Shown in pieces: positions 22,022-64,000 of a stretch of DNA of 64,000 nt. This stretch comes from Agelas oroides (taxonomy: Eukaryota; Porifera; Demospongiae; Agelasida; Agelasidae). The translations under genes were made by a program, and so were the position numbers. The notes under the pieces are model-generated. The model had not been told where the DNA came from and did not search any database. It saw only the letters and a list, made by a program, of their open reading frames with translations. The first letter of the stretch is position 1; each line of letters begins with the position of its first letter. Where the stretch lies: NCBI GenBank assembly GCA_949130485.1, contig OX422184.1, positions 26,106,763 to 26,170,762 on the forward strand, read 5' to 3'.

Positions 22022-22030
22022 GGTATGCCC

Positions 22031-22960: not shown

Positions 22961-23353
22961 GTATAATGTGTCCAAGGGGGTCAGGGATGAATCACGTAGT
23001 GTGTCCAAGGTGGTCAGGGATGAATCACGTAGTGTGTCCAAGGGGGTCAGGGATGAATCACGTAATGTGTCCAAGGGGGTCAGGGATGAATCACGTAGTG
23101 TGTTCAAGGGGGTCAGGGATGAATCACGTAATGTGTCCAAGGGGGTCAGGGATGAATCACGTAATGTGTTCAAGGGGGTCAGGGATGAATCACGTAATGT
23201 GTTCAAGGGGGTCAGGGATGAATCACGTAATGTGTTCAAGGGGGTCAGGGATGAATCACGTAATGTGTTCAAGGTGGTCTAGGACTGACCACATAATGTG
23301 TCCAAGGGGGTCTAGGACTGACCGCATAATGTGTCCAAGGGGGTCTAGGACTA
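22961..23353. repeat. 33-bp tandem repeat, about 12 copies
   Basis: Unit contains GTCAGGGATGAATCACGTA followed by (A/G)TGTG(T)CCAAGGGG. Because 33 is divisible by three it is open on both strands (plus GSGMNHV..., minus NTLRDSSLTPL). The last three copies shift to TCTAGGACTGACC and CATAATG, so the array decays at its right side. I regard the open frames as repeat-derived. Confidence 0.9.
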
Positions 23354-27808: not shown

Positions 27809-27837
27809 AGTCACCATCTATCATGGCACTTAAGTCT

Positions 27838-27922
27838 GTACTCTTCCCCCTCTCCCCCTCTCCCCCTCTCCTCCCCCTCTCCCCCTCTCCTCTCCCCCTC
27901 TCCCTCTCTCCCCCTCTTCCCC
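27838..27922. repeat. (CCCCTCTC)n simple repeat
   Basis: Regular CCCCTCTCC units, separated from the larger polypyrimidine tract by 30 bases of mixed sequence. Same intron. Confidence 0.85.
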
Positions 27923-28518: not shown

Positions 28519-28660
28519 GTGTGTGGGTGCATGAGTATGTGAAGGGGTGTGTGGGGTGTGGGATGAGTGGGAGAGGAAGATAGAGGGTGTGAGGGAGATA
28601 CCATTATTGAGTGCTCCTCTCCCAAGACGTCAAGATGGTGATGTACTCGACTTAAAGAGT

Positions 28661-29885: not shown

Positions 29886-32800
29886 ATAGTATATGCAGTG
29901 ATGTGCGATAGTATATGCATTGATGTAATATTGCATGCAGTGATGTCCAATAGTATATGCAGTGATGTGCGATAGTATATGCATTGATGTAATATTGCAT
30001 GCAGTGATGTGCTATAGTATATGCTGTGATGTACTATAGCATGCAGTGATGTGCAATAGTATATGTAGTGATTTACAACAGCATGCAGTGAATGTGCAAT
30101 GGTATATGCAGTGTTGTACTGTAGCATCAGTGATGTGGAATAGTGTATGCAGTGATACACTAGAACATCCAGTGATGTGCAATAGTATATTCAGTGATAT
30201 GCAATAGCATGCAGCAATGTGCAATAGTATATGCAGTGATGTGAAATAGTATATGCAGTGATGTGCAATAGTATTTGCAGTGATGTGCAATAGCATGCAG
30301 GAATGTGCAGTAGTATACGCAGTGATGTAATATAGCATGCAGTGATGTGCAATAGTATATGCAGTGGTGTAATGCATGCAGTGATGTGCAATAGTGTATG
30401 CAGTGATGTACTATCGCAGCAGTGATATGCAATAGTATATTTAGTGATTTACTATAGCGTGCAGTGAATGTGCAATGGTATCTGCAGTGTTGTACTGTGG
30501 CATTCAGTGATGTGGAAAGTGTATGCAGTGATGAGCTGTAGCATGCAGTGATGTGCAATAGTATATGCAGTGATATGCAATAGCATGCAGCAATGTGCAG
30601 TAGTGTATGCAGTGATGTAGCATGCAGTGATGTGCAGTAGTATATGCAGTGATATGCAATATTATATGCAGTGATGTAATATGGCATGCTGTGATCTGCA
30701 ATAGTATATGCAGTGATGTGCAATAGTATATGCAGTGATATGCTATAACGTGCAGTGATGTGTAATAGTATATTTAGTGATATGCGATAGCATCCAGCAT
30801 TGTGCAGTAGTATAGCAGTGATGTAATATAAGATGCAGTGATGTGCAATAGTACCGTATAGCGGGTTATTTTCGTGGGTGGAAATTTTCGTGAAAAGCTG
30901 GAAGAGGCCCTCAGAATTAAATTTCGTGGTTTTAAATTTCGTGGCTCGCATATAACGTAATGTGAACTTTGAACTCGGTACACACGATGCTGTTTCGGCG
31001 AGGAACGTGTAGCCAGACTCTCACCAGAAAGAGTCTGGCTACGCGAGACTAGAGAAAAGATGGAGCGCTTCAGTGTCGAGTCTTGCATGGTAGGCTACCA
31101 TGTCTACAAACCACGAAGTCCGTTGGTGCTCGCATACCTGAACGAGAGGTACTGGTCCCGTTTCTTGGTCGTGCTTCTGCCCTGTTCCGTCACTTCTCTG
31201 TTGACTTCCTCCATGTATCACCACACACGAGACAGCTTGAGAAAGGGGACCCTACGGATCAAGGGCACTGTCAACTGGGCACAAGTAGCGAAAAAGAACA
31301 TCGCCCGGTCCGAACGTTAGCACAGAGCTACAGTGTGAGTAGAAAATTTCGTGGGTGGAAAATTTCGTGACACCAGAGTTGACCACGAAAATAACGAAAA
31401 TTAGCACCCCACGGAAATAACCCGCTATACGGATATGCAGTGATGTAATATAGGATATCAGTGATGTGTTACAAAATGCAGTGATGTGCAATTGTATATG
31501 CAGTTATGTGCAATAGTATATGCAGGGATGTACTATAGCATGCAGTGATGTGCAATAGTATATGCAGTGATATGCAACAGCGTGCAGCAAGTGCAGTAGT
31601 ATATGCAGTGACGTAGTAAGGCATGCAGTGATGTGCAATAGCATATGCAGTGATATGCAATAGTATGAGCAATGTGAAATAGTATATGCAGTTATGTGCA
31701 ATGGTATATGCAGTGATGTACTCTAGCATGCAGCAATGTGCAATAGAATATGCAGTGATGTAATATAGTATGCAGTGATGTGCTATAGTATATGCAGTGA
31801 TGTGCAGTAGTATATGCAGTGATGTACTATTGCTGCAGTGATGTGCAATAGATGCAGTGATATGCAATAGCATGCAGCAGTGCGCAGTAGTATGCAGTAA
31901 TGTAATATTGCATGCAGTGACGTGCAATAGTGTATGCAGTGATGTACTATAGCATGCAGTGATGTGCAATAGTACATGCAGTGATTTACAATAGCATGCA
32001 GTGAATGTGCAATGGCATATGCAGTGATATGCAATAGCATGCAACAATGTGCAGTAGTATATGGAGTGATGTAATATAACATGTAGTGATGTGCAATAGT
32101 ATATGCAGTGAGATGCAATAGTCATGATATGCAATGATGTGAATAGTATATGTAGTGATATGCTATAACATGCAGTGATGTGCAGTAGTCTATGCAGTGA
32201 TGTAATATAACATGCAGTGATGTGCAATAGTATAGCAGTGATGTGCGATAGTATATGCAGTGATGTAATATGGCATGCAGTGATGTGCAATAGTATATGC
32301 CCGGATGTACTATGGCATGCAGTGATGTGCAATTGTATATGCAGTGATGTGCATTAGTATATGCAGTGATTTAATATTGCAAGCAGTGATGTGCAATAGT
32401 GTATGCAGTGATGTACTATAGCTTATGTATAGTGATATGCAATAGTAATGTTGTGATGTGATATGCATGGCATGCAGTGATGTGCAATAGTATATGCAGT
32501 GATGTGAAATACTAATGCAGTGGAATACTATAGTATATGCTGTGATCTGCTATAACATGCAGTGATGTGGACTAGTCTATGCAGTGATATGCAATAGCAT
32601 GCAGCAATGTGCAGTAGTATATGCAGTGATGTAATATAACATGCAATGATGTGCAATGTATATGCAGTGATGTGCGATAGTATATGCGTGATGTAATATG
32701 GGATGCAGTGATCTGCAATAGTATATGCCCGGATGTATGGCATGCAGTGATGTGCAATACTATATGCAGTGATGTGCTATAGTATATGCAGTGATGTGCT

Positions 32801-35800
32801 ATAGTATATGCAGTGATGTAGTATAACATGCAGTGATGTGCTATAGTATATGCAGTGATGTAGTATAACATGCAGTGATGTGCAATAGTATATGCAGTGA
32901 TGTTATATAGTATATCAGTGATGTGTTATAAAATGCAGTGATATGCAAAAGTATATGCAGTTATGTGCAATAGTATATGCAGGGATATACTATAGCATGC
33001 AGTGAAGTGCAATAGTATATGCAGTGATATGGAATAGCATGCAACAATGTGCAGTAGTATATGCAGTGATGTAATATAACTTGCAGTGATGTGCAATAGT
33101 ATATGCAGTGATGTGCATTGGTATATGCAATGATGTACTCTAGCATGCAGCAATGTGCAATAGAATATGCAGTGATATAATATAGTATGCAGTGATGTGC
33201 TATAGTGTATGCAGTGATGTGCAGTAGTATATGCCGTGATGTGAAATAGTATATGCAGTGATGTGCAATAGTATTTGCAGTAATGTGCAATAACATGCAG
33301 GAATGTGCAGTAGTATACGCAGTGATGTAATATAACATGCAGTGATGTGCAATAGTATATGCAGTGATGTAATATTGCATGCAGTGATGTGCAATAGTGT
33401 ATGCAGTGATGTACTATTGCAGCAGTGATATGCAATAGTATATTTAGTGATTTACTATAGCGTGCAGTGAATGTGCAATGGTATCTGCAGTGTTGTACTG
33501 TGGCATTCAGTGATGTGCAATGGTAAATGCAATGATGTACTCTAGCGTGCAGCAATGTGCAATAGAATATGCAGTGATGTAATATAGTATGCAGTGATGT
33601 GCAATGGTATATGCAATGATGTACTCTAGCATGCAGCAATGTGCAATAGAATATGCAGTGATGTAATATAGTATGCAGTGATGTGCAATGGTATATGCAA
33701 TGATGTACTCTAGCATGCAGCAATGTGCAATAGAATATGCAGTGATGTAATATAGTATGCAGTGATGTGCAATGGTATATGCAATGATGTACTCTAGCAT
33801 GCAGCAATGTGCAATAGAATATGCAGTGATGTGCAGTAGTATATGCCGTGGTGTAAAATTGTATATGCAGTGATGTGCAATAGTATATGGAGTGAAATGC
33901 AATAGATTATGCAATGATGTAGTATATATATATGCAGTGTTGTACTATAGCATGCAGTGATGTGCAATAGCATATGCAGTGATATGCAATAGCATGAGCA
34001 ATGTGCAGTAGTATATGCAGTGATGTAATATAGCTTGCAGTGATGTGCAATAGTATATGGAGTGAAATGCAATAGATTATGCAATGTTGTACTATAGCAT
34101 GCCGTGATGTGCAATAGTATATGCAGTTATACTATAACATCCAGTGATGTGCAATAGCATATGCAGTGATATGCAATAGCATGCAGCAATGTGCAATAGT
34201 ATATGCAGTGATGTGATATAACTTGCAGTGATGTGTAATAGTATATGCGGTGATGTACAATGGTATATGCAGTGATGTACTCAAGCATGCAGCAATGTGC
34301 AATAGTATATGCAGTGATGTGATATAACTTGCAGTGATGTGTAATAGTATATGCGGTGATGTACAATGGTATATGCAGTGATGTACTCAAGCATGCAGGA
34401 ATGTGCAATAGAATGTGCAGTGATGTAATATAGCATGCAGTGATGTGCTATAGTATATGCAGTGATGTGCAGTAGTATATGCCGTAATGTGAAATAGTAT
34501 ATGCAGTGATGTGCAATAGTATATGCAGTGATGTACTATAGCATGCATTGATGTGCAATAGTATATGCAGTGATATGCAATAGCATGCAGCAATGTGCAG
34601 TAGTATATGCAGTGATGTAATATAACATGCAGTGATGTACAATAGTATATGCAGTGATGTGCAATAGTATATGCAGTGATGTAGTATGGCATGCAGTGAT
34701 GTGGAATAGTTTATGCAGGTTGTACTATAGCATGCAGTGATGTGCAATAGTATATGCAGTTACATACGATAACATCCAGTGATGTGCAATAGCATATGCG
34801 GTGGTATGCAATAGCATGCAGCAATGTGCAATAGTATATGCAGTGATGTAATATAGCTTGCAGTCATGTGTAATAGTATATGCTGTGATGTGCAATGGTA
34901 TATGCAGTGATGTACTCTAGCATGCAGCAATGTGCAGTAGAATATGCAGTGATGTAATATAGCATGCAGTGATGTTGTGTAGTACATGCAGTGATATGCA
35001 GTAGTATATGCAGTGATGTAGTATTGCATGCAGTGATGTGCAACAATAGATGCAGTGATACTCAATAGCATGCAGCAATGCGCAGTAGTATGTGCAGTAA
35101 TGTAATATTGCATGCAGTGATTTACAATAGCATGCAGTGAATGTGCAATGGCATATGCAGTGATATGCAATAGCATGCAGCAATGTGCAGTAGTATATGC
35201 AGTGATGTAATATAACATGCAGTGGTGTGCAATAGTATATGCAGTGATGTAATATAACATGCAGTGGTGTGCAATAGTATATGGAGTGAAATGCAATAGA
35301 TTATGCAATGATGTAGTATGGCATGCAGTGATGTGCAATAGTTTATGCAGTTATATACTACAACATCCAGTGATGTGCAATAGCATATGCAGTGATATGT
35401 AATAGCATGCAGCGATGTGCAATAGTATATGCAGTGATGTAATATAGCTTGCAGTGATATGTAATAGTATATGCAGTAATGTACAATGGTATATGCAGTG
35501 ATGTACTCTAGCATGCAGCAATGTTCAATAGAATATGCAGTGATGTAATATAGCATGCAGTGATTTGCTATAGTATATGCAGTGATGTGCAGTAGTGTAT
35601 GCAGTGATGTACTATAACATGCAGTGATGTGCAATAGTACATGCAGTGATTTACAATAGCATGCAGTAATGTAATATGAATGGCATGAGTGATGTTCAAT
35701 AGTATATGCGTGATGTGGAATAGTATATGCAGTGATGTGCAATAGTATATGCAGTGATATGCTATAATATGCAGATGTGCAATAGTATATGCTGTGATAT

Positions 35801-37433
35801 GCTATAACATGCAGTGATGTGCAATAGTATATGCAGTGATATGCAAAGCATGCAGCAATGTGCAGTAGTATATGCAGTGATATAATAATCATGCAGTGAA
35901 TTGCAATAGTATATGGAGTTTTGTAATATGGCATGCAGTGATGTGCAATAGTATATGCAGTGATGTGCAATAGTATATGCAGTGATGTGCAATAGTGTAT
36001 GCAGTGATGTAATATTGCATGCAGTGATGTGCAATAGTGTATGCAGTGATGTACTATGGCATGCAGTGATGTGCAATAGTATATGCAGTGATTTACAATA
36101 GCATGCAGTGAATGTGCAATGGCATATGCAGTGATATGCAATAGCATGCAGCAATGTGCAGTAGTATATTCAGTGATGTAGTTTGGCATGCAGTGATGTA
36201 ATATAGCTTGCAGTGATGTGCAATAGTATATGCAGTGATGTGCAATGGTATATGCAATGATGTACTCTACCAGGCAGCAATGTGCAATAGAATATGCAGT
36301 GATGTAATGTAGGATGCAGTGATGTGCTATATAGTATATGCAGTGATGTGAAATAGTATATGCAGTGATGTGCAATAGTATATACAGTGATGTACTATAG
36401 CATGCATTGATGTGCAATAGTATATGCAGTGATATGCAATAGCATGCAGCAATGTGCAGTAGTATATGCAGTGATGTAATATAACATGCAGTGATGTGCT
36501 ATAGTATATGCAGTGATGTGAAATAGTATATGCAGTGATGTGCAATAGTATATACAGTGATGTACTATAGCATGCATTGATGTGCAATAGTATATGCAGT
36601 GATATGCAATAGCATGCAGCAATGTGCAGTAGTATATGCAGTGATGTAATATAACATGCAGTGATGTGTAATAGTATATGCAGTGATGTGTAATAGTATA
36701 TGCAGTGATGTGTAATAGTATATGCAGTGATGTACAGTGGTATATGCAGTGATGTACTCAAGCATGCAGCAATGTGCAATAGAATGTGCAGTGATGTAAT
36801 ATAGCATGCAGTGATGTGCTATAGTATATGCAGTGATGTGCAGTAATATATGCCGTGATGTGAAATAGTATATGCAGTGATGTGCAATAGTATATGCAGT
36901 GATGTACTATAGCATGCATTGATGTGCAATAGTATATGCAGTGATATGCAATAGCATGCAGCAATGTGCAGTAGTATATGCAGTGATGTAATATAACATG
37001 CAGTGATGTGTAATAGTATATGCAGTGATGTGCAATGGTATATGCAGTGATGTACTCTAGCATGCAACAATGTGCAATAGAATATGCAGTGATGTAATAT
37101 AGCATGCAGTGATGTACAGTATATGCAGTGATGTGCAATGGCATATGCAGTGATATGCAATAGCATGCAGCAATGTGCAGTAGTATATGCAGTGATGTAA
37201 TATAACATGCAGTGGTGTGCAATAGTGTATGCAGTGATGTGCAATAGATTATGCAATGATGTAGTATGGCATGCAGTGATGTGCAATAGTTTATGCAGTG
37301 TTGTACTGTAGCATGCAGTGATTTACAATAGCATACAGTGAATGTGCAGTGGTATATGCAGTGTTGTACTGTAGCATTCAGTGTTGTGGAATAGTGTATG
37401 CGTGATGAGCTGTGCATGCAGTGATGTGCAATA
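29886..37433. repeat. Subtelomeric array of 20-22-bp monomers
   Basis: Built from a 22-bp monomer containing CAATAGTATATGCAGTGATG alternating with ~20-bp variants such as AATATAACATGCAGTGATGT and GCAATAGCATGCAGCAATGT. About 7 kb of array after excluding the insertion at 30854-31432. A regular 84-bp higher-order unit (four monomers) is repeated about four times at 33.54-33.84 kb, and a ~176-bp unit near 36.3-36.95 kb. The minus strand lacks stops in the monomer in all frames, which explains the many His/Tyr/Ile-rich open frames up to 431 codons; these are not genes. Confidence 0.9.
30854..31432. mobile_element. TIR element (CCGTATAGCGGG) inserted in the array
   Basis: Starts CCGTATAGCGGGTTATTTTC and ends with the reverse complement (GAAATAACCCGCTATACGG). 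Inner sequence repeats TTTCGTGG(G)TGGAAATTTCGTG at both sides. The target duplication is not clean (left GTA, right ATATG). It carries a nested foldback, GTAGCCAGACTCTC/GAGAGTCTGGCTACGCGAGA-like, at about 31010-31052, and an 86-codon frame (31060-31320) without recognised homology. Confidence 0.8.
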
Positions 37434-37618
37434 GCAAGAGCGCATAAGAACGGGCGGCTAGAGTAAGAACGTGTAACTCCAATAGAAGCCCGTAGTCCGG
37501 GCAAAATTATTGAACCGTACTAAAAATAGAACATCCGGTCACGTGTGCGCTTAGCAACAATGCATAAGGGCTTATGTCAACGCAGCGTGCGCAGTGCGTG
37601 TTACTATTTTTAGTACTG

Positions 37619-40600
37619 CACTGTTAAAAATGAGGTGTTACATTAACACTTAAAAGAGGTGTTACTTGAGTGTCCACTCAGTGACTCTACCTTTGGGTGC
37701 TCGGATAGCACCTCTAAAATGGTGCTAATGCTACACTCTAGTGGTGTAGAACTACACCAGCTTCCTGGGCATGTTTAGCACCAGAGGATTTAGAATAGCA
37801 CCGTATTGTGGAGTTCTTCAAAGGCCAAATATTGGTGACACCAGCTGAGAGTGCTCAATTGGCACCTCTAAATGGTGTAATTGTGTAGGGGTACACCAGT
37901 TTTTGGGTAAATTTAGCACTGGAGGATTCAAAGTTCAAAGTTCAAACACATGTTGAATGTATACTTCAAAAACGAACAAGTACAATAAAATGGATGAATA
38001 ACAGTCCATAAACAAGTCGCACAAATGCAATAACCTAACATGCGATAAAATATGCAGCTTCAGTTTGTCCATGCACACAACAAACTTTAACATTATGGAA
38101 TTCAAAGTTTGACTTGCTTTCTCTGAGAGCAGAATCCGGATCATCCTCGTCCTACATCGAGAGAAAGATTGTGTAGACGCAGTCATAGTGATTTCCTTTA
38201 TGTATTTCAAGCAAGCTAGTGTAAGTGCATGCATTTATAATATTTACATGTATTTGTATTTGTCTTTTAAACATGCAGGTCCATGAAGGGCCAAGTGGAT
38301 GCATGTCATTTCACAATATAAGTGAGAACGCAACTGCCTTCTCTGCATCACTGCTAACTATGTCCATGGATTTCCCTTAATTGACCAGACCATTCACTCA
38401 TGTTTTCACTGGGCCTAGTAAGTAAAATGCCCTCTCCCCTTTTTCTATACCGTAGTCTCGCGAAAAAGGGCCCACTTACAAAAGAGCGCCCACCCCCTAC
38501 TTTTCGCCCAATTTCCTGTACAGGGTCAAAGTTTACTCGAATGAGCGCCCACCCTGAAGCAAGCTTCACGTGGAGTTTGAGAAGCACAGTATGCGTATCT
38601 GAGGTAAGAAACTTCATGTAATACTTCACCGAAGTTGCTACAAGGCATCTTTGCGTAGACGGACGTAGCTAATGTGGTGTGCACTCCGAGTGACACCATG
38701 CTCATGGTGACGTGGTGCCGTTCAGAGTGTTGTGTGCCGTTAGGACTCAACTTCGAAGCTGCTGGTGGTTCTGTTGTACGTTACTGTTTGTCCAATTATT
38801 TGCTTTGAGGGCATCGAGTCCCTGTAAACAAGACATGGGCACTATTTCGTGGTTAAATGCGGAAACACCCGAAAGAGCGCCCACCCCCCTCTTTGGCAGA
38901 CTTGTAAGGTGCTCCGCCCATGGGCCGTTTTTCGTGAGACTACGGCACTACATTTTAGTCTAAAGTGAGGAGGAGGCATTTACTCAAATGTAAACCTCAC
39001 CAACAACTGAAGCCGACTCCAGTTTTGTACCACATCAACAACAGGAGCAGAGTTGCTGCACTCTCATTCTCTACATGGAGAAGATTGACACAACACGCTG
39101 TTAGAGACAGTTTATATATCTTGTAAATTGGAAAAATTTTGGTGTTAACATATTTTGTAGACCTAGACAGCAACGAAAATTAAACTGCCGAAAAATTTTC
39201 AATAGCTAAGTATTAAAACAATGCTACATGAAAACATAGCTCAAGCTAGTGACATGCCTGTGGGGTAAGTGCTGCTAGCGACGAACTTGAGCGCTAGGCA
39301 CAGAAGTCTTGGGTAAGATCAACTGACTCAGATTGAGGCTATAGTTCCAATGCAGTGCGTTGGTTTCACAATTTCACCTTCAAAGAGTCTGCCCAAGGAG
39401 TCGTGTTTTATTCATCTGCCTTCACAAGCGATTGTAGCCAAGGTACATAATGGTAGGCACATATACAGCTATGTCTTGGGCCAGTGGTAGCTCATCAAAA
39501 AAATAACGTTTTCCTGTTGAATGTTGTCTTACCATGTTATCTGCCACCTGTAGTAGAGAAGTCGTCATTGGCTTAGTCCACACAGCTTTGCCACTCCAAA
39601 CGTTTCCCCTCATTTTCTCTCAGTTGATACTCCCTGTTAGCACATCCTCAGCTTTGAGCTTCTTGAGCAGCTACAAATATAGATATGTATAATGGCATTC
39701 CGTACAGTGAAATCAACTGCATGTTGGTATATATAAAAAATAAGCCTATAGATACAGTTATACAGGTTGTGTACTGCATGCATGCTCTGGCAATCTCCTA
39801 GTCTTGTTCACACTAGAGTTTATTGCTTGCAACTCACTGTGATAGCTGATTCCACTGTCTTGTTGCTGTCTCTTAGAAGGACTCCAAAAATACAGAATTG
39901 TTAGTTCTCCTGTTGGAATCTGGGGGAGCGAAGTCCAACCCAGTGCGTGCTTACTATAGCATTCATCTTCCAGCTGTCCTTGATGCGAGAGTCACCGATT
40001 CAACTATCAGTGATACGCCGACTCGGATGCGCGGGATGCGCACACATTTTAAACGTCGACAGCGACTACTTTAAAACAGTAGGAGGTTGCTAGAATCACA
40101 AAAGTTAGAAGTTACAAACCAGGGAAAGGCCACAGAAGGTTCAAATCGCACACAAGAGAAATCAGCAGCTGCTGCGCTGCCCGCGCGCCAAAAATCACGC
40201 GATTGTACAAAGTGCAAAGTACGAAGTTCAGTATGCGCATGCGTAGCACGGAAATACTTACCCAGTGAGACACAGCAGGCTAGAAACTGCATCTCTGCAC
40301 GGATTCCCACCGCAGCAAGCGTCTGGACTTTTACCACTATATGTTTAACTCCAAATTTTAGCAAGTCCATGATATATAGCGCCTTCAAATCGATGTCAGC
40401 AATTGTTTCAAGGTGGTTAACATCAATGTATTGTAGCAAATTAACCGAGGAAGTGTGTAATAAAGTAGCTATCTGTATGTTTTATGAAAAAATACTCAGG
40501 AAATTCTTGTTTGAGGTGCACTAGAGTATGAACCTTATAAACCCTACTGTTGGTGCTGTTTCTACACTAGAGTTTTAAATTAAACTATGTTAGGGCTAAA

Positions 40601-40876
40601 GTAAAACATATAGTGTTACACTGCACCTACTGGGTTAACTTTAGCACTACATAAATAGCACTCCTGGTGTTGGTATAACACCTCCCTTTCTTGCGTGTAT
40701 CATGTGAACCTCACATTGGTGTCAATCCTACTCCAAGGTGGTTTACACTAAGCCATGCTGGTGCTGAACTAAACAACCAAGTGTTATACTACACCTCATG
40801 GGTTGATACTTGCACTGCAGATATATGCTTACTTTAACACTACCAGTGTTAATTTCACACCTCTATTTTAACAGTG
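37619..40876. mobile_element. Inner TIR element, CACTGTTAAAA termini
   Basis: CACTGTTAAAAATGAGGTGT at the left matches in reverse complement CACTGTTAAAATAGAGGTGT at the right. The subterminal ~300 bp on each side repeat motifs such as GGTGTTAC, AGCACC and TACACC in both orientations, which is unusual for a plain MITE. Inserted within the 37434-40954 element. Confidence 0.65.
38450..38945. mobile_element. Third-level TIR element, CCGTAGTCTCGCGAAAAA
   Basis: Left CCGTAGTCTCGCGAAAAAGG then GAGCGCCCACCCCC; right GAGCGCCCACCCCC then GGGCCGTTTTTCGTGAGACT. Note that GAGCGCCCACCCCC is a direct repeat while the termini are inverted. About 0.5 kb, no coding capacity. Confidence 0.7.
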
Positions 40877-40954
40877 TGGCGGTAAATTCCGCCCGGTTTC
40901 GAATTTTACGTAGTTACACGCTCTTACTCTAGCCGCCCGTTCTTATGCGCTCTT

Positions 40955-41142
40955 GCAATAGTATATGCAGTGATACACTTTAACATCCAGTGATGTGCAA
41001 TAGTATATTCAATATGTAATAGCATGCAGCAATGTGTGATAGTATATGCAGTGATGTGCAATAGTATATGCAGTGATGTTAATAGTATTTGCAGTGATGT
41101 GCAATAGTATATGCAGTGATATACAATGGCATGCAGCAATGT
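40955..41142. repeat. Right remainder of the 20-22-bp array
   Basis: CAATAGTATATGCAGTGAT monomers resume directly after the composite transposon and end at about 41142, where GTGCACCC/CCACTTCC-type sequence of the next array starts without a spacer (GCAATGTACGGTTGCACCCA). Confidence 0.85.
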
Positions 41143-48300: not shown

Positions 48301-49899
48301 TAGTCCCCTGCATTCACCTGGCGTTATACACCCACTCCCATACGTTCCCCTGGCATTCCTCTGCATTCCCTGCATTACCCTGGCAGTTTACACCCACTCC
48401 CATACGTTCCCCTGGAATACCCCTGTATACCCCAGCATTCCCCTGACACTTTCCACCCACTCCCATAAGTTCCCCTGGGATTCCCCTGTATTCCCCTGGC
48501 ACTTTGCACCCACTACCATACGTTCCCCTGGCATTCCCTTGCATTCCCCTGCATTCCCCTGTATTCCCCTGGCACTATACACCCACTCCCGTAGATTCCC
48601 CTGTCATTCCCCTGCATTCCCCTGGCATTTTAAACTCACTCCCATACGTTTCCCTGGCATTCACCTGCATTCCCGTGTATTCCCGTGCATTCCCCTTTAT
48701 TCCCCTGCATTCCCCTGGCACTTTACACTCGCCCCCTTACATTCCTCTGGTAGTTCCCTGCATTCCCCTGGCAATTTGCATCCTCTCTCGTACGTTCCCC
48801 TGGCATTTCTTTGCATTCCCCTTCATTCCCGTACCACTTTACACCCGCCCCCTTACATTCTCCTGGTAGTTCCCTGCATTCCCCTGGCACTATACACCGA
48901 CTCCCATATGTTCCCCTGGCAATCCCCTGCATTCCCCTGCTTTCCCATGGCAGTTTGCACCCACTCCCATACGTTCCCCTGGTATTCCTCTACATTCCCC
49001 AGCATTCCCCTGGCACTTTGCACCAACTCCCATACGTTCGCCTGGCATTCCCATGTATTTCCCTGCATTCCCCTGCATTCCCCTGCATTCCCCTGGCACT
49101 TTGCCTGCACTCTCGTACATTCACCTGGCATTCCCCTGCATTCCCCTTCATTCCGCTAGCACTTTACCCCCACTACCGTACGTTCCCTGGCATTCCGCTG
49201 CATTCCCCTGCATTCCCCTGGGTATTTGCATTCTCTCTCCTACTTTCCCCTTGCATTGCTTTGCATTCCCCTTCATTCACCTAGCACTTTAGACTCGCCC
49301 CCTTACATTCACCTGGTAGTTCCCTGCATTCCCTTGGCACTCTGCACCCACTCCCATATGTTCCACTGGCATTCCCCTGCAAACCCCTGCATTCCCCTGG
49401 CAGTTTGCACCCACTCCCATACGTTCCCCTGGTATTCCCCTACATTCCACAGCATTCCCTGGCACTAAACACCCACTCACATACGTTCCCCTGGCATTCC
49501 CCTGCATTCCCTGCTTTCCCCTGGCAGTTTACACCCACTCCCATACGTTCCCCTGGCATTCCCCTGTATTCCCCTGAATTCCCCTGCGTTCCCCTGGCAC
49601 TTTGCATCCACACTCGTATGTTCCCCTGGCATTCCCCTGCATTCTCCTTCATTCTGCTAGCACTTTACACCCACTCCCTTGCATTCCCCTGGTGGTCCCC
49701 TGCATTCCCCTGGCACTATACACCCACTCCCATGCGTTCCCCTGGCACTTTGCACCCACTTCCATACGTTCCCCTGGCATTCCCCTGTATTCCCCTGAAT
49801 TCCCCTGCATTCCCCTGCGTTCCCCTGGCACTTTGCATCCACACTCGTATGTTCCCCTGGCATTCCCCTGCATTCCCCTTCATTCCGCTAGCACTTTAC

Positions 49900-52800: not shown

Positions 52801-53620
52801 CACCCACTCCCTTGCATTACCCTGGTAGTCCCCTGCATTCCTGTGGCACTATACACCCACTCCCATATTTTCCCCTGGCATTCCCCTGCATTCCCTGCAT
52901 TCACCTGGCAGTTTACACTCACTCCGATACGTTTCCCTGGCATTCCCCTGCATTCTCCTGCATTCCCCTGGCACTTTGCACCCACTACCGTACGTTCCCC
53001 TGGCATTCCCCTGTATTCCCCTGCATTCCCCTGGCAATTTGCATCCTCTCTCGTAAGTTCCCCTGGCATTCCTTTGCATTCCCCTTCCCGTAGCACTTTA
53101 CACCCACCACCTTACATTCCCCTGGTAGTTCCCTGCATTCTCCTGGCACTATACACCCACTCATATGTTCCCCTGGCATTCCCTTGCATTCCCTGCATTA
53201 CCCTGGTAGTTTGCACCCACTCCCATACATTCCCCTGGCATTCCCCTGCATTCCCCAGCAATCCCCTGGCACTTTGCATCCACTCCCATACGTTCCCCTG
53301 GCATTTCCCGGTATTCCCTTGGATTCCCCTGCATTCCCATGCGTTCCCCTGGCACTTTGCCTCCACTCCAATACGTTCCCCTGGCATTCCCCTGCATTCC
53401 CTGCAATCCCCTGGCAGTTTACACCCACTCCCATACGTTCCCTTAGCATTCCCCTGTATTCCCCAGCATTCCCCTGACAGTGCACCCACTCTCATAAGTT
53501 CCCCTGGCATTCCCCTGTATTTCCCTGGCACTTTGCACCCACTACCATACATTCCCCTGGCATTCCCTTGCATTCCTCTGTATTCCCCTAGCACTTTACA
53601 CCCACTCCCGTAGATTCCCC
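49900..53620. repeat. ~2.26-kb segmental duplication within the array
   Basis: The series CACTCC(A/C)GTAGATTC, CACTCCCAT(C/A)TGTTCCCC, TTTCCCC or GTTCCCC blocks, ending TTCCCGTAGCACTTTACACC, appears at about 50.2-50.8 kb and again at about 52.46-53.1 kb with an offset of 2.26-2.28 kb. Flanking blocks (49.9-50.2/52.2-52.45 and 50.87-51.3/53.15-53.6) keep the same order. Confidence 0.6.
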
Positions 53621-54499
53621 TGTTATTCACCTGTATTCCCCTGGCACTTTACACTCACTCCCATACGTTTCCCTGGCATTCCCCTGCATTCCCGTGCATT
53701 ACCCTGCATTCCTCTGGCAATTTGTACCCACTACAGTACATTCCCATGGCATTCCCCTGCATTCTCCTGCATTCCCCTGGCAATTTACATCCTCTCTCGT
53801 ACGTTCCCCTTGCATTCCTTTGTATTCCCCTTCATTACCCTAGCACTTTACACTCGGTCCCTTACATTCCCCTGGTAGTTCCCTGTATTCCCCTGGCACT
53901 ATACACCCACTCCCATATGTTCCCCCGGCATTCCCCTGCATTCCCCTGCATTCCCCTGCATTCCCCTGGCAGTTTTCACCCACTCCCATACATTCCCCTG
54001 GCATCCCTTGCATTTCCCAGCATTCCCCTGGCACATTGCACCCACTCCCTTGCATTACCCTGGTAGTCTCCTGCATTCTTCTGGCACTATACACCCACTC
54101 CCATTCGTTCCTCTGGCATTCCCCTGCATTCACTGAATTCCCCTGGCAGTTTACACCCACTCCCATACGTTCCCCTGGCATTCCCCTGCATACCCCAGCA
54201 TCCCCCTGCCACTTTGCACCCACTCCCATATGTTCCCCTGGCATTCCACTGTATTCCCCTGGCACTTTGCACCCACCAACATACGTTCCCCTGGCATTCT
54301 CCTGCATTCCCCTGTATTTCCCTGGCAGTTTGCACCCACTTCCAATCGTTCCCCTGGCACTCCCCTGCATTACCCAGCATTCCCCTGGCACTTTGCACCC
54401 ACTCCCATACGTTCCCCTGGCATTACCCTGTATTCTCCTGTATTCCCCTGCATTCCACTGCGTTACCCTGGCACAGCCTCCACTCTCGTACTTTCCCCT

Positions 54500-56640
54500 G
54501 GCATTCCCCTGCATTCCCCTTCATTCCGCTAGCACTTTACACCCACTCCCTTGCATTCCCCTGGTAGTCCCCTGCATTCCCCTGGCACTATACACCCACT
54601 CCCATACATTCCCCTGGCATTCCCCTGCATTCCCTGCATTCCCCTGGCAGTTTACACCCACTCCCATACGTTCCCTTGGCATCCCCCTGCAATCCCAGCA
54701 TTCCCCTGGCACTTTGCACCCACTCCCATACGTTCCCCTGGCATTTCCCTGTATTCCCCTGCATTCCCCTGCGTTCCCCTGGCGCTTTGCCTCCACTCTC
54801 GTACGTTCCCCTGACATTCCCCTGCATTCCCCTTCATTCCACTAGCACTTTACACCCACACCCTTGCAAATCCACTCGTAGTCCCCTGCATTCCCCTGGC
54901 ACTATACACCTCCCATACGTTCCCCTGGCATTCCCCTGCATTCCCCAGCATTCCCCGGCCCTTTGTACCCACTACTCCAATAGGTTCCCATGGCATTCCC
55001 CTGTATTACTCTCGTGCTTTGCACCCACTTCTGTACATTCCCTTGGCATATGCCTGCATTACCCAGCATTCCCCAGCATTCCGCTGGCACTTTGCACCCA
55101 CTCCCATACATTCCTCTGGCATTTCCCTGTATTCCCCTGTATTCCCCTGCATTCCCCTGCGTTCCCCTGGCATTCCCCTGCATTCCCCTTCGGCTAGCAC
55201 TTTACACCCACTCGCTTGCATTCCCCTGGTAGTCCTCTGCATTCCTCTGGCACTATACACCCACTCCCATACGTTCCCCTGGCATTCCCCTGCATTCCCT
55301 GCATTCCCCTGCATTCCCTGCATTCCCCTGGCAGTTTACACCCACTCCCATACGTTCCCTTGGCATCCCCCTGCATTCCCAGCATTCCCCTGGCACTTTG
55401 CACCCACTCCCATACGTTCCCCTGGCATTTCCCTGTATTCCCCTGCATTCCCCTGCGTTCCCCTGGCGCTTTGCCTCCACTCTCGTACGTTCCCCTGACA
55501 TTCCCCTGCATTCCCCTTCATTCCGCTAGCACTTTACACCCACTCCCTTGCATTCCCATCGTAGTCCCCTGCATTCCCCTGGCATTATACACCTCCCATA
55601 CGTTCCGCTGGCATTCCCCTGCATTCTCTGCATTCCCCTGGCAGTTTACACCCACTCCTATACGTTCTCCTGGCATTCCCCTGCATTCCCCAGCATTCCC
55701 CGGCCCTTTTTACCCACTACTCCAATAGGTTCCCCTGGCATTCCCCTGTATTCCTCTCGCGCTTTGCACCCACTTCTGTACATTCCCTTGGCATATGCCT
55801 GCATTACCCAGCATTCCCCAGCATTCCGCTGGCACTTTGCACCCACTCCCATGCGTTCCTCTGGCATTTCCCTGTATTCCCCTGTATTCCCCTGCATTCC
55901 CCTGCGTTCCCCTGGCATTCCCCTGCATTCCCCTTCCTTCGGCTAGCACTTTACACCCACTCCCTTGCATTCCCCTGGTAGTCCCCTGCATTCCTCTGGC
56001 ACTATACACCCACTCCCATACGTTACCCTGGCATTCCCCTGCATTCCCTGCATTCCCTGCATTCCCCTGCATTCCCTGCATTCCCCTGGCAGTTTACACC
56101 CACTCCCATACGTTCCCCTGGCATTTCCCTGTATTCCCCAGCATTCCCCTGCGTTCCCCTGGCGCTTTGCCTCCACTCTCGTACGTTCCCCTGACATTCC
56201 CCTGCATTTCCCTTCATTCCGCTAGCATTTTACACCCACTCCCTTGCATTCCCCTCGTAGTCCCCTGCATTCCCCTGGCACTATACACCTCCCTTACGTT
56301 CCCCTGGTATTCCCCTGCACTCCCTGCATTCCCTGCATTCCCCTGGCAGTTTACACCCACTCCCATACGTTCCCCTGGCGTTCCCCTGCATTCCCCAGCA
56401 TTCCCCGGCCCTTTGTACCCACTACAATAGGTTCCCCTGGCATTCCCCTGTATTCCTCTCATGCTTTGCACCCACTCCTGTACATTCCATTGGCATATGC
56501 CTGCATTACCCAGTATTCCCCAGCATTCCGCTGGCACTTTGCACCCACTCCCATACATTCCTCTGGCATTCCCCTGTATTCCCCTGTATTCCCCTGCATT
56601 CCCCTGGTATTCCCCTGCATTCCCTTTCATTCCGCTAGCA
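54500..56640. repeat. ~0.7-kb higher-order repeat, three diverged copies
   Basis: Marker ACTACTCCAATAGGTTCCC at about 54972 and 55707 and ACTACAATAGGTTCCCC at about 56423; each is followed by CTCTCGTGCTTTGCACCC-like, GGCATATGCCTGCATTACCC and later CCCCTTC(GGCT)AGCAC blocks. Spacing 735 and ~716 bp; copies differ by small insertions. Confidence 0.7.
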
Positions 56641-59600
56641 CTTTACACCCACTCCGTTGCATTCCCCTGGAACTATACACCGTTCCCCTGGCATTCCCCT
56701 GCATTCTCTGCATTCCCCTGGCAGTTTACACCCACTCTCATACGTTCCCCTGACATTCCCCTGTATTCCCCAGCATTCCCATGACACTTTGCACCCACTC
56801 CCATAATTTCCCATGGCATTCCCCTGTATTCCCCTGGCTCTTTGCACCCACTACCATACGTTCCCCTGGCATTCCCCTGCATTCCCCTGCATTCCCCTGC
56901 ATTCACCTGAATTCCCCTAGCACTTTACACCCACTCCCGTAGATTCCCCTGTCATTCCCCTGCATTCCCCTGGCACTTTACACTCCCATACGTTTCCCTG
57001 GCATTCCCCTGCATTTCCGTGCATTCCCCTGGCACTTTGCACCCACTCCCATATGTTCCCCTGTCATTCCCCTCTATTCCCCTGCATTCCCCTGCATTCC
57101 CCTGCGTTCCCCTGGCACTTTGCCTCCACTCTTGTACGTTTCCCTGGCATTCCCCTGCATTACCCTTCATTCCGCTAGCACTTTACACCCACTCCCTTCC
57201 ATTTCCCTGGTAGTCCCCTGCATTCCCCTGGTACTATACACCCACTCCCATACGTTCCCCTGTCATTCCCCTGCATTCCCTGCATTCCCCTGGCAGTTTA
57301 CACCCACTCCCATACGTTCCCCTGGCATTCCCCTGCATTCCCCAGCATTTCCCTGGCACTTTGCACCCACTCTCATACGTTCCCCTGGCATTTCCCTGTA
57401 TTCCCCTGCATTCCCCTGCGTTCCCCTGGCACTTTGCCTCCACTCTCGTACGTTCACCTAGCATTCCCCTGCATTCCCCTTCATTACGCTAGCACTTTAC
57501 ACCCACTCCTTTATATCCCCTGGTAGTCCCCTGCATTACCCTAGCATTATACACCCATTCCTATACGTTCCCCTGGCATTCCCCTGCATTCCCTACATTC
57601 CCCTGGCAGTTTACACTCACTCCCATACGTTTCCCTGGCATTCCCATGCATTCCCCTGCATTCCCCTGGCACTTTGCACCCACTACGTACGTTCCCTGGC
57701 ATTCCGCTGCATTCCCCTGCATTCCCCTGGGTATTTGCATTCTCTCTCCTACTTTCCCTGGCATTGCTTTGCATTCCCCTTCATTCCCCTAGCACTTTAG
57801 ACTCGCCCCCTTACATTCACCTGGTAGTTCCCTGCATTCCCTTGGCACCCTACACCCACTCCTATATGTTCCACTGGCATTCCCCTGCATACCCCTGCAT
57901 TCCCCTGGCAGTTTGCACCCACTCCCATACGTTCCCCTGGTATTCCCCTGCATTCCACAGCATTCCCTGGCACTTTGCACCCACTCCCATACGTACCCCT
58001 GGCATTCCCCTGTATTCCCCTGCATTCCCCTGGCATTCTTCTGCATTCTCTGCATTCCCCTGACAGTTTATACCCACTCCCATATTTTCTTTCGTATTCC
58101 CCTGCATTCCCCTACATTGCCCTGGCACGTTGCACCCTCTCCCATACGTTCCCTTGGCATTCCCCTGCAATCCCCTGGCACTATGTACACACTCCCGTAC
58201 ACTCTAATGGGATTCCCCTCCATTCCCCTTGCACTTTCCACCCACCAATTTACGTTCACCTGGCATTCCTCTGCATTCCTCTGCATTACCTGGACACTTT
58301 GCACCCACACACATTCCCCTGCATTCCCCTGGCACTTTGCACCCACTACCGTACGTTCCCCTGGCATTCCCCTGCATTCCCCTGCATTCCCTTTTTATTC
58401 CCCTGGCACTTTACACCCACTCCTGTAGATTCCCGTCATTCCCCTGCATTCCCCTGGCACGTTACACCCACTCCCATACGTTCACCTGGCATTCCTCTGC
58501 ATTCCTCTGCATTCCCCTGCATTACCTGGACACTTTGCACCCACACCCATTCCCATGCATTACCCTGGCAATTTGTATCCACTCCCATACATTCTCATGG
58601 GATTCCCCTCCATTCCCCTGGCACTTTGCACCCACTCCCATACATTCCCTTGGCATTCCCCTAGATTTCCCTGGCACATTGCACCCACCCATTTATGTTT
58701 TCCTGGTATTCCTGTGCATTCCCCTGCATTCGTGGACTCTTTGCACCCACACATACATTCCCCTGCATTCCCCTGGCACTTTGCACCCACTACCATACGT
58801 TTCCCTGGCATTCCCCTGCATTCCCCTGGCACTTTACACCCACTCCAATACGTTCCCCTTGCATTCCCCTCCATTCCCCATGGTACTTTGCACCCACTCC
58901 CATACATTCCCCTGGCACTTTACACCCACTCCCATACATTTCCCTGACATTCACCTGCATTTCCCTGGCACTTTTCACCCACTACCATACATTCTAATGG
59001 GATTCCACTCCATTCCCCTGGCACTTTGCACCCACTACCATACGTTCCCTTGGCGTTCCCTTGGTATTTCCCATCATTCCCCTGCATTCCCCTAGCACAT
59101 TGCACCCACTCCCATGTTAACTTGACATTCCCCTGCATTCCCCTCCTTTCTCCTGGCACTTTACACCTCTCACATATGTTCCCCTGGTATTTCCCTTCAT
59201 TCCCCTGCATTGCTCTAGCACTTTGCACCCAGTTCCATGCAATTCCATGGATTCCCCTGTCATTCCCCTGCATTAACGTGGCACTTTGGACCTATTTCCA
59301 TACATTCTCCTGGCTGCATTCCGCTGCATTCCCCTGCATTCCCCTGGGGAGTTCACCCACTCCCTTACATTCCCCTGGCATTTCCCTGCATTCCTCTGGC
59401 GGTTTACACGCACTCCCAATACGTTCCCTTGGTATTTCCCTAAATTTCCCTGCATTACCCTGGCACTTTTCACCCACTGCCTTAAGATTCGACGGCATTC
59501 CCCTGCATTCCCCTGGCACTTTGCACCCACCCATACGTTCCATTGCATTTCCCTGAATTCGCCTACATTCCTCAGGCACTTTGTGCCCACTCCCATACTT

Positions 59601-59744
59601 TCCCCTGACATTCCCCTCAATTCCCCTGCATTCCCCTGGCACTTTGCACACAGATCCATACATTCACCTGGCATTTCTTTGCATTCACCTGCATCCCTCT
59701 GGCACTTTGCACAGACTCCCGTTCATTCCCCTGCATTCCCCATC

Positions 59745-59910
59745 ATGCTTTGTGCCTGCGGCGCGATGCAGCTTCGCCGCAGCGCGAAATAACCAGTGCA
59801 ATAGGCGGCGCCGCATCATGCCTACAGCACAATGCTGCGCCGGTTATAAATGTAAATAAATGGCGGGCCCGTAGGGCCCGCCATTTATTTACATATTTAA
59901 GCGACGAGCT
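59745..59910. other. GC-rich spacer between the two arrays
   Basis: Non-repetitive sequence with CGGCGCGATGCAGCTTCGCC, then GGCGGCGCCGC and GCTGCGCCGG, several self-complementary stretches (TGCGGCG...CGCCGCA), and the long hairpin at 59851-59893. It separates the C-rich array from the G-rich satellite. Confidence 0.8.
59851..59893. repeat. Perfect hairpin, 20-bp arms, 3-base loop
   Basis: TGTAAATAAATGGCGGGCCC, loop GTA, then the exact reverse complement. No downstream T-run, and eukaryotic context argues against a bacterial-type terminator. It sits 18 bases before the first 55-bp satellite unit. Confidence 0.9.
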
Positions 59911-62900
59911 ACTGAAAGGTGGTTGGGGCGAAGTGTTTGGGGGGTTTGGTGTTAATAGTTAATTGACTGAAAGGGGGTTGGGGCAAAGTGTTTGGGGGGT
60001 TTGGTGTTAATAGTTAATTGACTGAAAGGGGGTTGGGGCAAAGTGTTTGGGGGGTTTGGTGTTAATAGTTAATTGACTGAAAGGGGGTTGGGGCAAAGTG
60101 TTTGGGGGGTTTGGTGTTAATAGTTAATTGACTGAAAGGGGGTTGGGGCAAAGTGTTTGGGGGGTTTGGTGTTAATAGTTAATTGACTGAAAGGGGGTTG
60201 GGGCAAAGTGTTTGGGGGGTTTGGTGTTAATAGTTAATTGACTGAAAGGGGGTTGGGGCAAAGTGTTTGGGGGGTTTGGTGTTAATAGTTAATTGACTGA
60301 AAGGGGGTTGGGGCAAAGTGTTTGGGGGGTTTGGTGTTAATAGTTAATTGACTGAAAGGGGGTTGGGGCAAAGTGTTTGGGGGGTTTGGTGTTAATAGTT
60401 AATTGACTGAAAGGGGGTTGGGGCAAAGTGTTTGGGGGGTTTGGTGTTAATAGTTAATTGACTGAAAGGGGGTTGGGGCAAAGTGTTTGGGGGGTTTGGT
60501 GTTAATAGTTAATTGACTGAAAGGGGGTTGGGGCAAAGTGTTTGGGGGGTTTGGTGTTAATAGTTAATTGACTGAAAGGGGGTTGGGGCAAAGTGTTTGG
60601 GGGGTTTGGTGTTAATAGTTAATTGACTGAAAGGGGGTTGGGGCAAAGTGTTTGGGGGGTTTGGTGTTAATAGTTAATTGACTGAAAGGGGGTTGGGGCA
60701 AAGTGTTTGGGGGGTTTGGTGTTAATAGTTAATTGACTGAAAGGGGGTTGGGGCAAAGTGTTTGGGGGGTTTGGTGTTAATAGTTAATTGACTGAAAGGG
60801 GGTTGGGGCAAAGTGTTTGGGGGGTTTGGTGTTAATAGTTAATTGACTGAAAGGGGGTTGGGGCAAAGTGTTTGGGGGGTTTGGTGTTAATAGTTAATTG
60901 ACTGAAAGGGGGTTGGGGCAAAGTGTTTGGGGGGTTTGGTGTTAATAGTTAATTGACTGAAAGGGGGTTGGGGCAAAGTGTTTGGGGGGTTTGGTGTTAA
61001 TAGTTAATTGACTGAAAGGGGGTTGGGGCAAAGTGTTTGGGGGGTTTGGTGTTAATAGTTAATTGACTGAAAGGGGGTTGGGGCAAAGTGTTTGGGGGGT
61101 TTGGTGTTAATAGTTAATTGACTGAAAGGGGGTTGGGGCAAAGTGTTTGGGGGGTTTGGTGTTAATAGTTAATTGACTGAAAGGGGGTTGGGGCAAAGTG
61201 TTTGGGGGGTTTGGTGTTAATAGTTAATTGACTGAAAGGGGGTTGGGGCAAAGTGTTTGGGGGGTTTGGTGTTAATAGTTAATTGACTGAAAGGGGGTTG
61301 GGGCAAAGTGTTTGGGGGGTTTGGTGTTAATAGTTAATTGACTGAAAGGGGGTTGGGGCAAAGTGTTTGGGGGGTTTGGTGTTAATAGTTAATTGACTGA
61401 AAGGGGGTTGGGGCAAAGTGTTTGGGGGGTTTGGTGTTAATAGTTAATTGACTGAAAGGGGGTTGGGGCAAAGTGTTTGGGGGGTTTGGTGTTAATAGTT
61501 AATTGACTGAAAGGGGGTTGGGGCAAAGTGTTTGGGGGGTTTGGTGTTAATAGTTAATTGACTGAAAGGGGGTTGGGGCAAAGTGTTTGGGGGGTTTGGT
61601 GTTAATAGTTAATTGACTGAAAGGGGGTTGGGGCAAAGTGTTTGGGGGGTTTGGTGTTAATAGTTAATTGACTGAAAGGGGGTTGGGGCAAAGTGTTTGG
61701 GGGGTTTGGTGTTAATAGTTAATTGACTGAAAGGGGGTTGGGGCAAAGTGTTTGGGGGGTTTGGTGTTAATAGTTAATTGACTGAAAGGGGGTTGGGGCA
61801 AAGTGTTTGGGGGGTTTGGTGTTAATAGTTAATTGACTGAAAGGGGGTTGGGGCAAAGTGTTTGGGGGGTTTGGTGTTAATAGTTAATTGACTGAAAGGG
61901 GGTTGGGGCAAAGTGTTTGGGGGGTTTGGTGTTAATAGTTAATTGACTGAAAGGGGGTTGGGGCAAAGTGTTTGGGGGGTTTGGTGTTAATAGTTAATTG
62001 ACTGAAAGGGGGTTGGGGCAAAGTGTTTGGGGGGTTTGGTGTTAATAGTTAATTGACTGAAAGGGGGTTGGGGCAAAGTGTTTGGGGGGTTTGGTGTTAA
62101 TAGTTAATTGACTGAAAGGGGGTTGGGGCAAAGTGTTTGGGGGGTTTGGTGTTAATAGTTAATTGACTGAAAGGGGGTTGGGGCAAAGTGTTTGGGGGGT
62201 TTGGTGTTAATAGTTAATTGACTGAAAGGGGGTTGGGGCAAAGTGTTTGGGGGGTTTGGTGTTAATAGTTAATTGACTGAAAGGGGGTTGGGGCAAAGTG
62301 TTTGGGGGGTTTGGTGTTAATAGTTAATTGACTGAAAGGGGGTTGGGGCAAAGTGTTTGGGGGGTTTGGTGTTAATAGTTAATTGACTGAAAGGGGGTTG
62401 GGGCAAAGTGTTTGGGGGGTTTGGTGTTAATAGTTAATTGACTGAAAGGGGGTTGGGGCAAAGTGTTTGGGGGGTTTGGTGTTAATAGTTAATTGACTGA
62501 AAGGGGGTTGGGGCAAAGTGTTTGGGGGGTTTGGTGTTAATAGTTAATTGACTGAAAGGGGGTTGGGGCAAAGTGTTTGGGGGGTTTGGTGTTAATAGTT
62601 AATTGACTGAAAGGGGGTTGGGGCAAAGTGTTTGGGGGGTTTGGTGTTAATAGTTAATTGACTGAAAGGGGGTTGGGGCAAAGTGTTTGGGGGGTTTGGT
62701 GTTAATAGTTAATTGACTGAAAGGGGGTTGGGGCAAAGTGTTTGGGGGGTTTGGTGTTAATAGTTAATTGACTGAAAGGGGGTTGGGGCAAAGTGTTTGG
62801 GGGGTTTGGTGTTAATAGTTAATTGACTGAAAGGGGGTTGGGGCAAAGTGTTTGGGGGGTTTGGTGTTAATAGTTAATTGACTGAAAGGGGGTTGGGGCA

Positions 62901-63409
62901 AAGTGTTTGGGGGGTTTGGTGTTAATAGTTAATTGACTGAAAGGGGGTTGGGGCAAAGTGTTTGGGGGGTTTGGTGTTAATAGTTAATTGACTGAAAGGG
63001 GGTTGGGGCAAAGTGTTTGGGGGGTTTGGTGTTAATAGTTAATTGACTGAAAGGGGGTTGGGGCAAAGTGTTTGGGGGGTTTGGTGTTAATAGTTAATTG
63101 ACTGAAAGGGGGTTGGGGCAAAGTGTTTGGGGGGTTTGGTGTTAATAGTTAATTGACTGAAAGGGGGTTGGGGCAAAGTGTTTGGGGGGTTTGGTGTTAA
63201 TAGTTAATTGACTGAAAGGGGGTTGGGGCAAAGTGTTTGGGGGGTTTGGTGTTAATAGTTAATTGACTGAAAGGGGGTTGGGGCAAAGTGTTTGGGGGGT
63301 TTGGTGTTAATAGTTAATTGACTGAAAGGGGGTTGGGGCAAAGTGTTTGGGGGGTTTGGTGTTAATAGTTAATTGACTGAAAGGGGGTTGGGGCAAAGTG
63401 TTTGGGGGG
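59911..63409. repeat. 55-bp telomere-adjacent satellite, ~63.6 copies
   Basis: Unit starts ACTGAAAGGGGGTTGGGG, continues CAAAGTGTTTGGGGGGTTTG and ends GTGTTAATAGTTAATTG. Phase is constant: the sequence realigns with the 60-column layout every 660 bases. The first copy has two differences (AAGGTGG and GGGGCGAAG at about 59920 and 59930); all later copies look identical by eye. The unit is G-rich on the same strand as the telomere and contains TTGGGG and TTTGGGG, telomere-like motifs. The last copy ends in GTTTGGGGGGT where telomere begins. Confidence 0.95.
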
Positions 63410-63688
63410 TTAGGGTTAGGGTTAGGGTTAGGGTTAGGGTTAGGGTTAGGGTTAGGGTTAGGGTTAGGGTTAGGGTTAGGGTTAGGGTTAGGGTTAGGGT
63501 TAGGGTTAGGGTTAGGGTTAGGGTTAGGGTTAGGGTTAGGGTTAGGGTTAGGGTTAGGGTTAGGGTTAGGGTTAGGGTTAGGGTTAGGGTTAGGGTTAGG
63601 GTTAGGGTTAGGGTTAGGGTTAGGGTTAGGGTTAGGGTTAGGGTTAGGGTTAGGGTTAGGGTTAGGGTTAGGGTTAGGGTTAGGGTTA

Positions 63689-63724
<36 letters not shown>

Positions 63725-64000
63725 GGTTAGGGTTAGGGTTAGGGTTAGGGTTAGGGTTAGGGTTAGGGTTAGGGTTAGGGTTAGGGTTAGGGTTAGGGTT
63801 AGGGTTAGGGTTAGGGTTAGGGTTAGGGTTAGGGTTAGGGTTAGGTTAGGGTTAGGGTTAGGGTTAGGGTTAGGGTTAGGGTTAGGGTTAGGGTTAGGGT
63901 TAGGGTTAGGGTTAGGGTTAGGGTTAGGGTTAGGGTTAGGGTTAGGGTTAGGGTTAGGGTTAGGGTTAGGGTTAGGGGTTAGGGTTAGGGTTAGGGTTAG
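63410..64000 (+). repeat. Telomere (TTAGGG)n, chromosome end
   Basis: About 98 copies of TTAGGG, G-rich strand toward the right end of the window, as expected for a right chromosome terminus. Perfect except for four isolated variants (listed separately). The window ends within the repeat. Frames reading RVRVRV or GLGLGL are artefacts of the repeat. Confidence 0.97.
63686..63707 (+). repeat. Variant telomere units (TTAG, TTTAGGG)
   Basis: Around 63686-63707 the repeat reads TTAG TTAGGG TTAGGG TTTAGGG, a shortened unit and a lengthened one 12 bases apart. Further single variants are TTAGG near 63841 and TTAGGGG near 63971. They could be real telomerase slippage or long-read consensus errors. 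Confidence 0.7.

Follow-up and report, generated by a model that had tools for sequence, protein, structure and literature searches.

The final 64,000 bases of contig C2 in the genome assembly of the sponge Agelas oroides (C2:26106763-26170762; hereafter the window) contain an ordered stack of tandem arrays that runs into a terminal TTAGGG tract, and we found the same plan, always in a single orientation, at 34 loci of the genome. The outermost array of this stack, a 55-bp G-rich satellite, is nearly perfectly uniform within a chromosome end and is spelled differently between many ends. To explain this combination we favour, with about an even chance of its being right, a sequence-based account in which the ends share duplicons, the 55-bp satellite is renewed locally, and the CpG-rich palindromic spacer on its inner side is a candidate promoter of telomere-directed RNA. 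Ordered subtelomeric satellites as such are already known; the new element is the near-perfect uniformity of the arrays, many of them with a private spelling. Our literature search, which covered titles and abstracts, returned no report of this arrangement, by which we do not claim its absence from print.

A fixed stack on many chromosome ends

From the inside to the tip, the window comprises a 1.2-kb block, a 22-bp array, a C-rich array, the spacer, the 55-bp satellite and TTAGGG (Table 1). It contains no N, and its last base is the contig end, C2:26170762. An earlier note, made from the letters of the window alone, had described three unrelated arrays, a palindromic spacer and the telomere in this order as one contiguous subtelomere-to-telomere transition, with transposons accepted by the first array and layered duplications in the second. 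All of this was borne out, including the positions, two inserts with terminal inverted repeats in the first array and layered periods in the second. The extent has to be revised: the shared unit reaches further inward, to the 1.2-kb block that the note had missed.

We searched 259,295,671 bases in 141 contigs, where C1-C23 measure 6.8-32.7 Mb and C24-C26 74-89 kb. The plan is present at 29/46 tips of the 23 chromosome-sized contigs, in four internal copies and on one small contig (C26). The inner block marks all 34 loci in fixed orientation, with 32 full-length and two split copies, and has two short, weak matches elsewhere in the genome. Searched as exact words, a 40-mer from the 22-bp array matched 44 times at 26 loci and a 61-mer from the C-rich array 14 times at 9 loci; the palindrome pattern (up to 3 mismatches) matched at 31 loci. 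All of these are subtelomeric or lie beside the internal copies, both array words in one orientation. The 34 block loci are the 31 palindrome loci plus C14L, C19R and C20R, where the contigs end inside the C-rich array. Each array was found on other chromosome ends, the comparison that the earlier note had proposed, and none was confined to internal loci. The 40-mer, the 61-mer and the palindrome had no match outside the 34 loci, although diverged copies could escape such a search. Twenty-nine satellite arrays amount to ~2024 units by length, compared with 2097 pattern matches genome-wide, and word matching over the 32 kb read at C7L showed the same order repeated.

In total, 49 tips were read (both of C1-C23 and the left ones of C24-C26, leaving aside C27-C141 and the right tips of C24-C26). 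Telomere sequence is visible at 24/46 tips of C1-C23, including C18L; C8R ends in satellite, and C19L reads N at its tip, with palindrome and satellite 5 kb inward. Every one of the 28 telomere tracts read (25 at tips, 3 at gaps) has the 55-bp satellite directly on its inner side.

An assembly artefact, with repeats collapsed or mis-joined, is an extremely improbable source of this pattern. Scaffolding errors do exist, as 200-N gaps adjoin three of the internal copies (the four being C2:91k, C13:9.10M, C22:878k and C22:1185k, with a shorter span read around C22:878k) and C18 starts with ~600 bp of foreign-looking DNA, and variants near the tips could be low-coverage errors. However, order and orientation are fixed at 34 loci, single-base spellings that run through whole arrays cannot arise by collapse, and the window is free of N. 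Since they adjoin these gaps, C2:91k, C13:9.10M and C22:1185k are probably misplaced or inverted end contigs; the end stacks inside the scaffolds span C2:86126-91181, C13:9099946-9104239 and C22:1181500-1184783. The sequence outside the C18 telomere (C18 ~1-620) is high in GC, looks like bacterial coding sequence and is probably a chimeric read or a contaminant.

Uniformity within ends and divergence between them

Each satellite unit was scored against the commonest unit of its own array. After de-duplication, 1301/1321 units from 31 loci equalled the consensus of their array, and the same held for 1662/1676 units in 24 arrays that were read over almost their whole length (C23R short by 110 bp). 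The latter counts exclude two spans, the telomere tract at C11R and 140 bp of scrambled sequence close to the tip of C14R. Samples from the inner and outer parts of an array agreed at all 28 loci having both. The longest uniform run, at C10L, comprises 148/148 units, and the arrays of C11L (104/104), C17L (92/92) and C6R (88/88) are likewise fully identical. Across the 31 loci, 18 consensus units are in use, and the per-site difference is 0.05% within arrays versus a mean of 3.3% between consensus units (values before de-duplication). Of the 14 variant units, most are close to the tip, a region in which sequencing error is most probable as well; internal ones are present in C12L and C3L. Neighbouring units carry variants in short runs (C12L 12-13, C7R, and C3R near the tip), and at C22:878k two unit forms are interleaved. 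As a separate observation, the last 420 bp before the telomere of C14R consist of scrambled, degraded units, unlike the uniform array further in.

The earlier note had also stated that homogeneity rises sharply toward the telomere. For the last array, which it called nearly identical throughout, this is correct: the best self-match at a shift, a measure lowered by indels, is 0.999. It does not apply to the step before, where the C-rich array (0.45-0.54, with the minimum in its outermost section) does not exceed the 22-bp array (0.54-0.58) in uniformity and was scored no higher by Tandem Repeats Finder. Moreover, the homogeneity of the satellite is a property of the single end and not of the genome, given its 18 consensus units.

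Further inside, the ends resemble each other closely. Copies of the inner block at the 33 other loci have 90-99% identity to the window copy, those at the two split loci 98-100%. Window positions 19700-22600 match at least four other loci nearly full length at 96-98% (C11L, C5L, C21L, C3L), and positions 8000-10500 at least three at 98-99% (C5L, C3L, C21L), both being lower bounds because 40 candidates were scored in each comparison. Spacers, by contrast, differ pairwise by a median of 22%. The ends C2R, C3L, C5L and C21L combine an inner region that is 96-99% alike with spacers 6-41% apart and four satellite spellings, so that likeness between ends falls outward, whereas within the array uniformity increases at the final step. 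For unlike ends, outer C-rich arrays have a median identity of 0.81, compared with 0.81 against random array pieces, which means that a register is common only within groups of ends. The difference between satellites is unrelated to spacer distance (Spearman -0.02). At C5L and C11L, for instance, the outer C-rich arrays are 99.6% alike and the spacers 2.1% apart, and every sampled and fully read satellite unit differs at two places. C11L carries a private base both in its array and in an old part-unit beside the spacer, where it lies between two bases that differ there; this pattern is hard to explain by long conversion tracts.

Altogether, these data suggest that each end renews its own 55-bp copy. 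In the account we favour, blocks of tens of kb have been copied between chromosome ends, which makes the inner parts alike. Ends would lose DNA back into the 55-bp array, telomerase would re-seed TTAGGG where the unit is G-rich, and terminal copying or unequal exchange would refill the array from its own units; such cycles of loss and refill would leave each end uniform for its own spelling. A rather unlikely alternative is refill by a rolling circle, in which a single burst of copying from a small circle of one or a few units generates a long array, corresponding to the roll in roll-and-spread; the units would then be identical as copies of the same template. The fully identical arrays at C10L, C11L, C17L and C6R fit this idea, as does the re-grown piece at C11R described below, but the short neighbouring runs of variants and the interleaving at C22:878k look like stepwise turnover, and the 18 spellings over 31 loci speak against any spread. 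For the latter reason, roll-and-spread lengthening of all ends from one source was rejected. We give a similarly low standing to concerted evolution of the ordinary kind, driven by slippage and unequal exchange, with a passive satellite and a spacer that is an inert boundary and whose CpG richness would reflect only its unmethylated state or young age. For telomere-adjacent Arabidopsis repeats, local homogenisation is the explanation usually given (PMC11406999), and short runs of shared variants are in line with it; yet the CpG island and the palindrome are kept at 31 loci despite a median flank difference of 22%, and C11R has re-grown outward.

The 28 telomere junctions fall into at least four phases of the 55-bp unit (11, 9 and 5 in three of them, 3 other) and usually lie at G-runs of the unit. 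Such varied junction points are as telomerase re-seeding after truncation would give, the role of the enzyme being putative. A fixed junction phase, derived from eight matches, was rejected in light of these 28 junctions, as the search pattern had preselected the eight. At C11R (C11:9509873-9511372), the satellite is followed by ~390 bp of TTAGGG, seven more units of the same spelling and the terminal TTAGGG, the outer seven units being joined to the inner TTAGGG tract at a G-run. At this single end, satellite was added outside a former telomere tract. Array units in such a position, a trait of recombination-based terminal elongation, were observed at this one end.

The spacer as a putative promoter

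Human telomeric repeat-containing RNA (TERRA) is initiated at many ends from CpG-rich 61-29-37 repeats (PMC6600276, PMC12242772), their number being given as 37/46 ends for a U2OS analysis in PMC12242772 and as about twenty in PMC6600276. Many ends here likewise have a CpG island close to the telomere on its inner side, a trait of TERRA promoters: the mean CpG observed/expected ratio of the spacer is 1.34 over 31 loci, whereas the C-rich array has 0.29, the satellite 0.12 and the stretch at window positions 1-29000 0.46. The lowest ratio, 0.79, was obtained in the window's own frame because the window spacer is short, and that spacer alone has 1.37; it is the shortest of those compared and the longest branch of the spacer tree. 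GC skew flips its sign at the spacer, from about -0.54 inside to +0.84 outside, so that G-rich strands point away from it in both directions, an arrangement that would suit divergent transcription and R-loops. TATAWA words flank the palindrome, upstream at 25/31 loci and on the other side at 26/31, versus 4.5% in shuffled words, which likewise favours a promoter. From this analysis, a putative promoter is the most likely identity of the CpG-rich palindromic spacer. Outward transcription from the spacer would yield RNA with 55-bp units followed by UUAGGG, comparable to human TERRA from its CpG-rich subtelomeric repeats. A scan of the spacer for bacterial promoters and terminators gave no match, its bacterial models not being applicable here.

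It is very unlikely that the palindrome acts instead as DNA, that is, as a site that forms a hairpin or cruciform, as an origin of replication or as a resolvase-like chromosome-end site. Its core is almost invariant: in the stem, 13/28 pairs are the same across loci, and 17 cells change on both sides compared with 8.3 in shuffles (0/500 as high); other measures of covariation are nevertheless ordinary, with the covariation score reached in 42/500 shuffles and the number of pair types in 348/500. The loop reads GTA at 22 loci and is inverted to TAC at 9 of the 31. On the spacer tree this requires seven loop changes (5-7 over bootstraps, at least two by well-supported branches, 8 on average in shuffles), which means that loop inversion recurred. 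Loop inversions linked to hairpins are, however, described for chloroplast DNA, where they occur without such a role (PMC3123225), and the chromosomes end not in hairpins but in TTAGGG, which begins 1.3-8.3 kb beyond the palindrome.

Several observations weigh against the combination of local renewal and a promoter function that we favour. A private spelling is not universal, as the commonest consensus unit is common to 11/31 loci. The re-growth at C11R concerns one end, and C3R shares its spelling, so that the template may not have been C11R's own array. The plan is absent in all its parts from 17/46 tips of C1-C23; since these also show no telomere, they are probably unfinished ends. The TATA-like words arise easily in an AT-rich palindrome, and the shuffle preserves base content only. 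NRF1 sites of the human 61-29-37 promoter type were not recovered, with an NRF1-like motif matching, weakly and with up to 3 mismatches, in 1/31 spacers. Finally, no canonical G-quadruplex motif with loops of up to 12 was found in the window's satellite, which led us to reject the satellite as a canonical G-quadruplex.

A further possibility, which we regard as distinctly unlikely, is that each end is fully self-renewing: the TTAGGG tip of a trimmed end would invade its own array at a G-run and copy outward, licensed by RNA from the island. The palindromic CpG island would then send RNA outward, and possibly inward too, along two opposite G-rich strands. If this is true, a telomerase-positive animal would run a second, cis-templated layer of end renewal beneath its telomeres.

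The 24 near-complete uniform arrays, many of them privately spelled, provide a direct clock of end rewriting relative to their own flanks, C11R makes recombination at telomerase-capped ends testable, and the CpG-island palindrome at 31 loci gives the search for an early-animal TERRA promoter a concrete candidate.

Window features and comparison with known systems

Table 1 Features of the stack in the window (positions are those of the window).
Feature	Position	Strand	Details
Inner block	28560..29785	+	adjoins the arrays on the inside; common to 34 subtelomeric loci
20-22-bp (42/64-bp) A/T-rich array	29886..37434	+	Tandem Repeats Finder
Insert with inverted repeats in the first array	30854-31432		arms of 25 nt, 96% complementary
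3.5-kb insert	37435..40956 (start approximate)		terminal inverted repeats of ~43-55 nt
22-bp array remnant, outer side of the 3.5-kb insert	40954..41139 (array units 40954-41127)	+
C-rich array	~41140..59745	+	10-bp base; 53/63/116/178/199-bp layers; G-rich strand faces inward
CpG-rich palindromic spacer	~59745..59918
Near-perfect palindrome	59838..59906		3-base loop, GTA in the window; TATA-like words on both sides
55-bp G-rich satellite	~59919..63409	+	~63 near-identical units; G-rich strand faces outward
TTAGGG telomere	~63410..64000	+	591 bp, reaches the contig end

The 3.5-kb insert looks like a DNA transposon. On the minus strand, long open frames at window positions 12906-15489 resemble a reverse transcriptase that is broken and has a nuclease-like part at its C-terminus, without a match in Pfam. 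Searches of four window open reading frames against Pfam and of the window against Rfam gave 0 matches each. A simple repeat with a strong C/T bias (window 26947-27922) is present within the C7L stack too, and a 33-bp minisatellite of 11.6 copies (window 22964-23345) has related sequence in C7L.

The terminal satellites of Chironomus form end-specific subfamilies. As in the present case, the chromosome ends carry tandem repeats whose lengths range from tens to hundreds of bp and for which recombination has been suggested (PMC9498494, PMC8122249). In Chironomus, repeats of ~350 bp replace the telomerase repeat, whereas here TTAGGG caps the array. In potato, CL14 and CL34 are described as unrelated satellite arrays in a fixed order at chromosome ends (PMC3276127). 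The potato array next to the telomere is reported there as the more variable one, while its counterpart here exceeds the other arrays in uniformity and is spelled privately by end. Uniform arrays derived from a single source are described for roll-and-spread in Kluyveromyces lactis mutants (PMC3486848), in which one source reaches all ends, in contrast to the many spellings that coexist here. The variant telomere repeats of Arabidopsis share the local homogenisation beside the telomere (PMC11406999), but are presented as 7-bp telomere variants in short runs, compared with 22-148 units of ~55 bp in the arrays studied here. The human 61-29-37 promoters, as described in the sources given above, resemble the spacer in being repeated, CpG-rich elements that lie close to the telomere on its inner side at many ends. 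They differ in that here a palindrome and 1.3-8.3 kb of satellite precede TTAGGG and that NRF1-like sites were not found as a regular feature. A relation in sequence is not expected between them and the sponge spacer, whose promoter role is putative.

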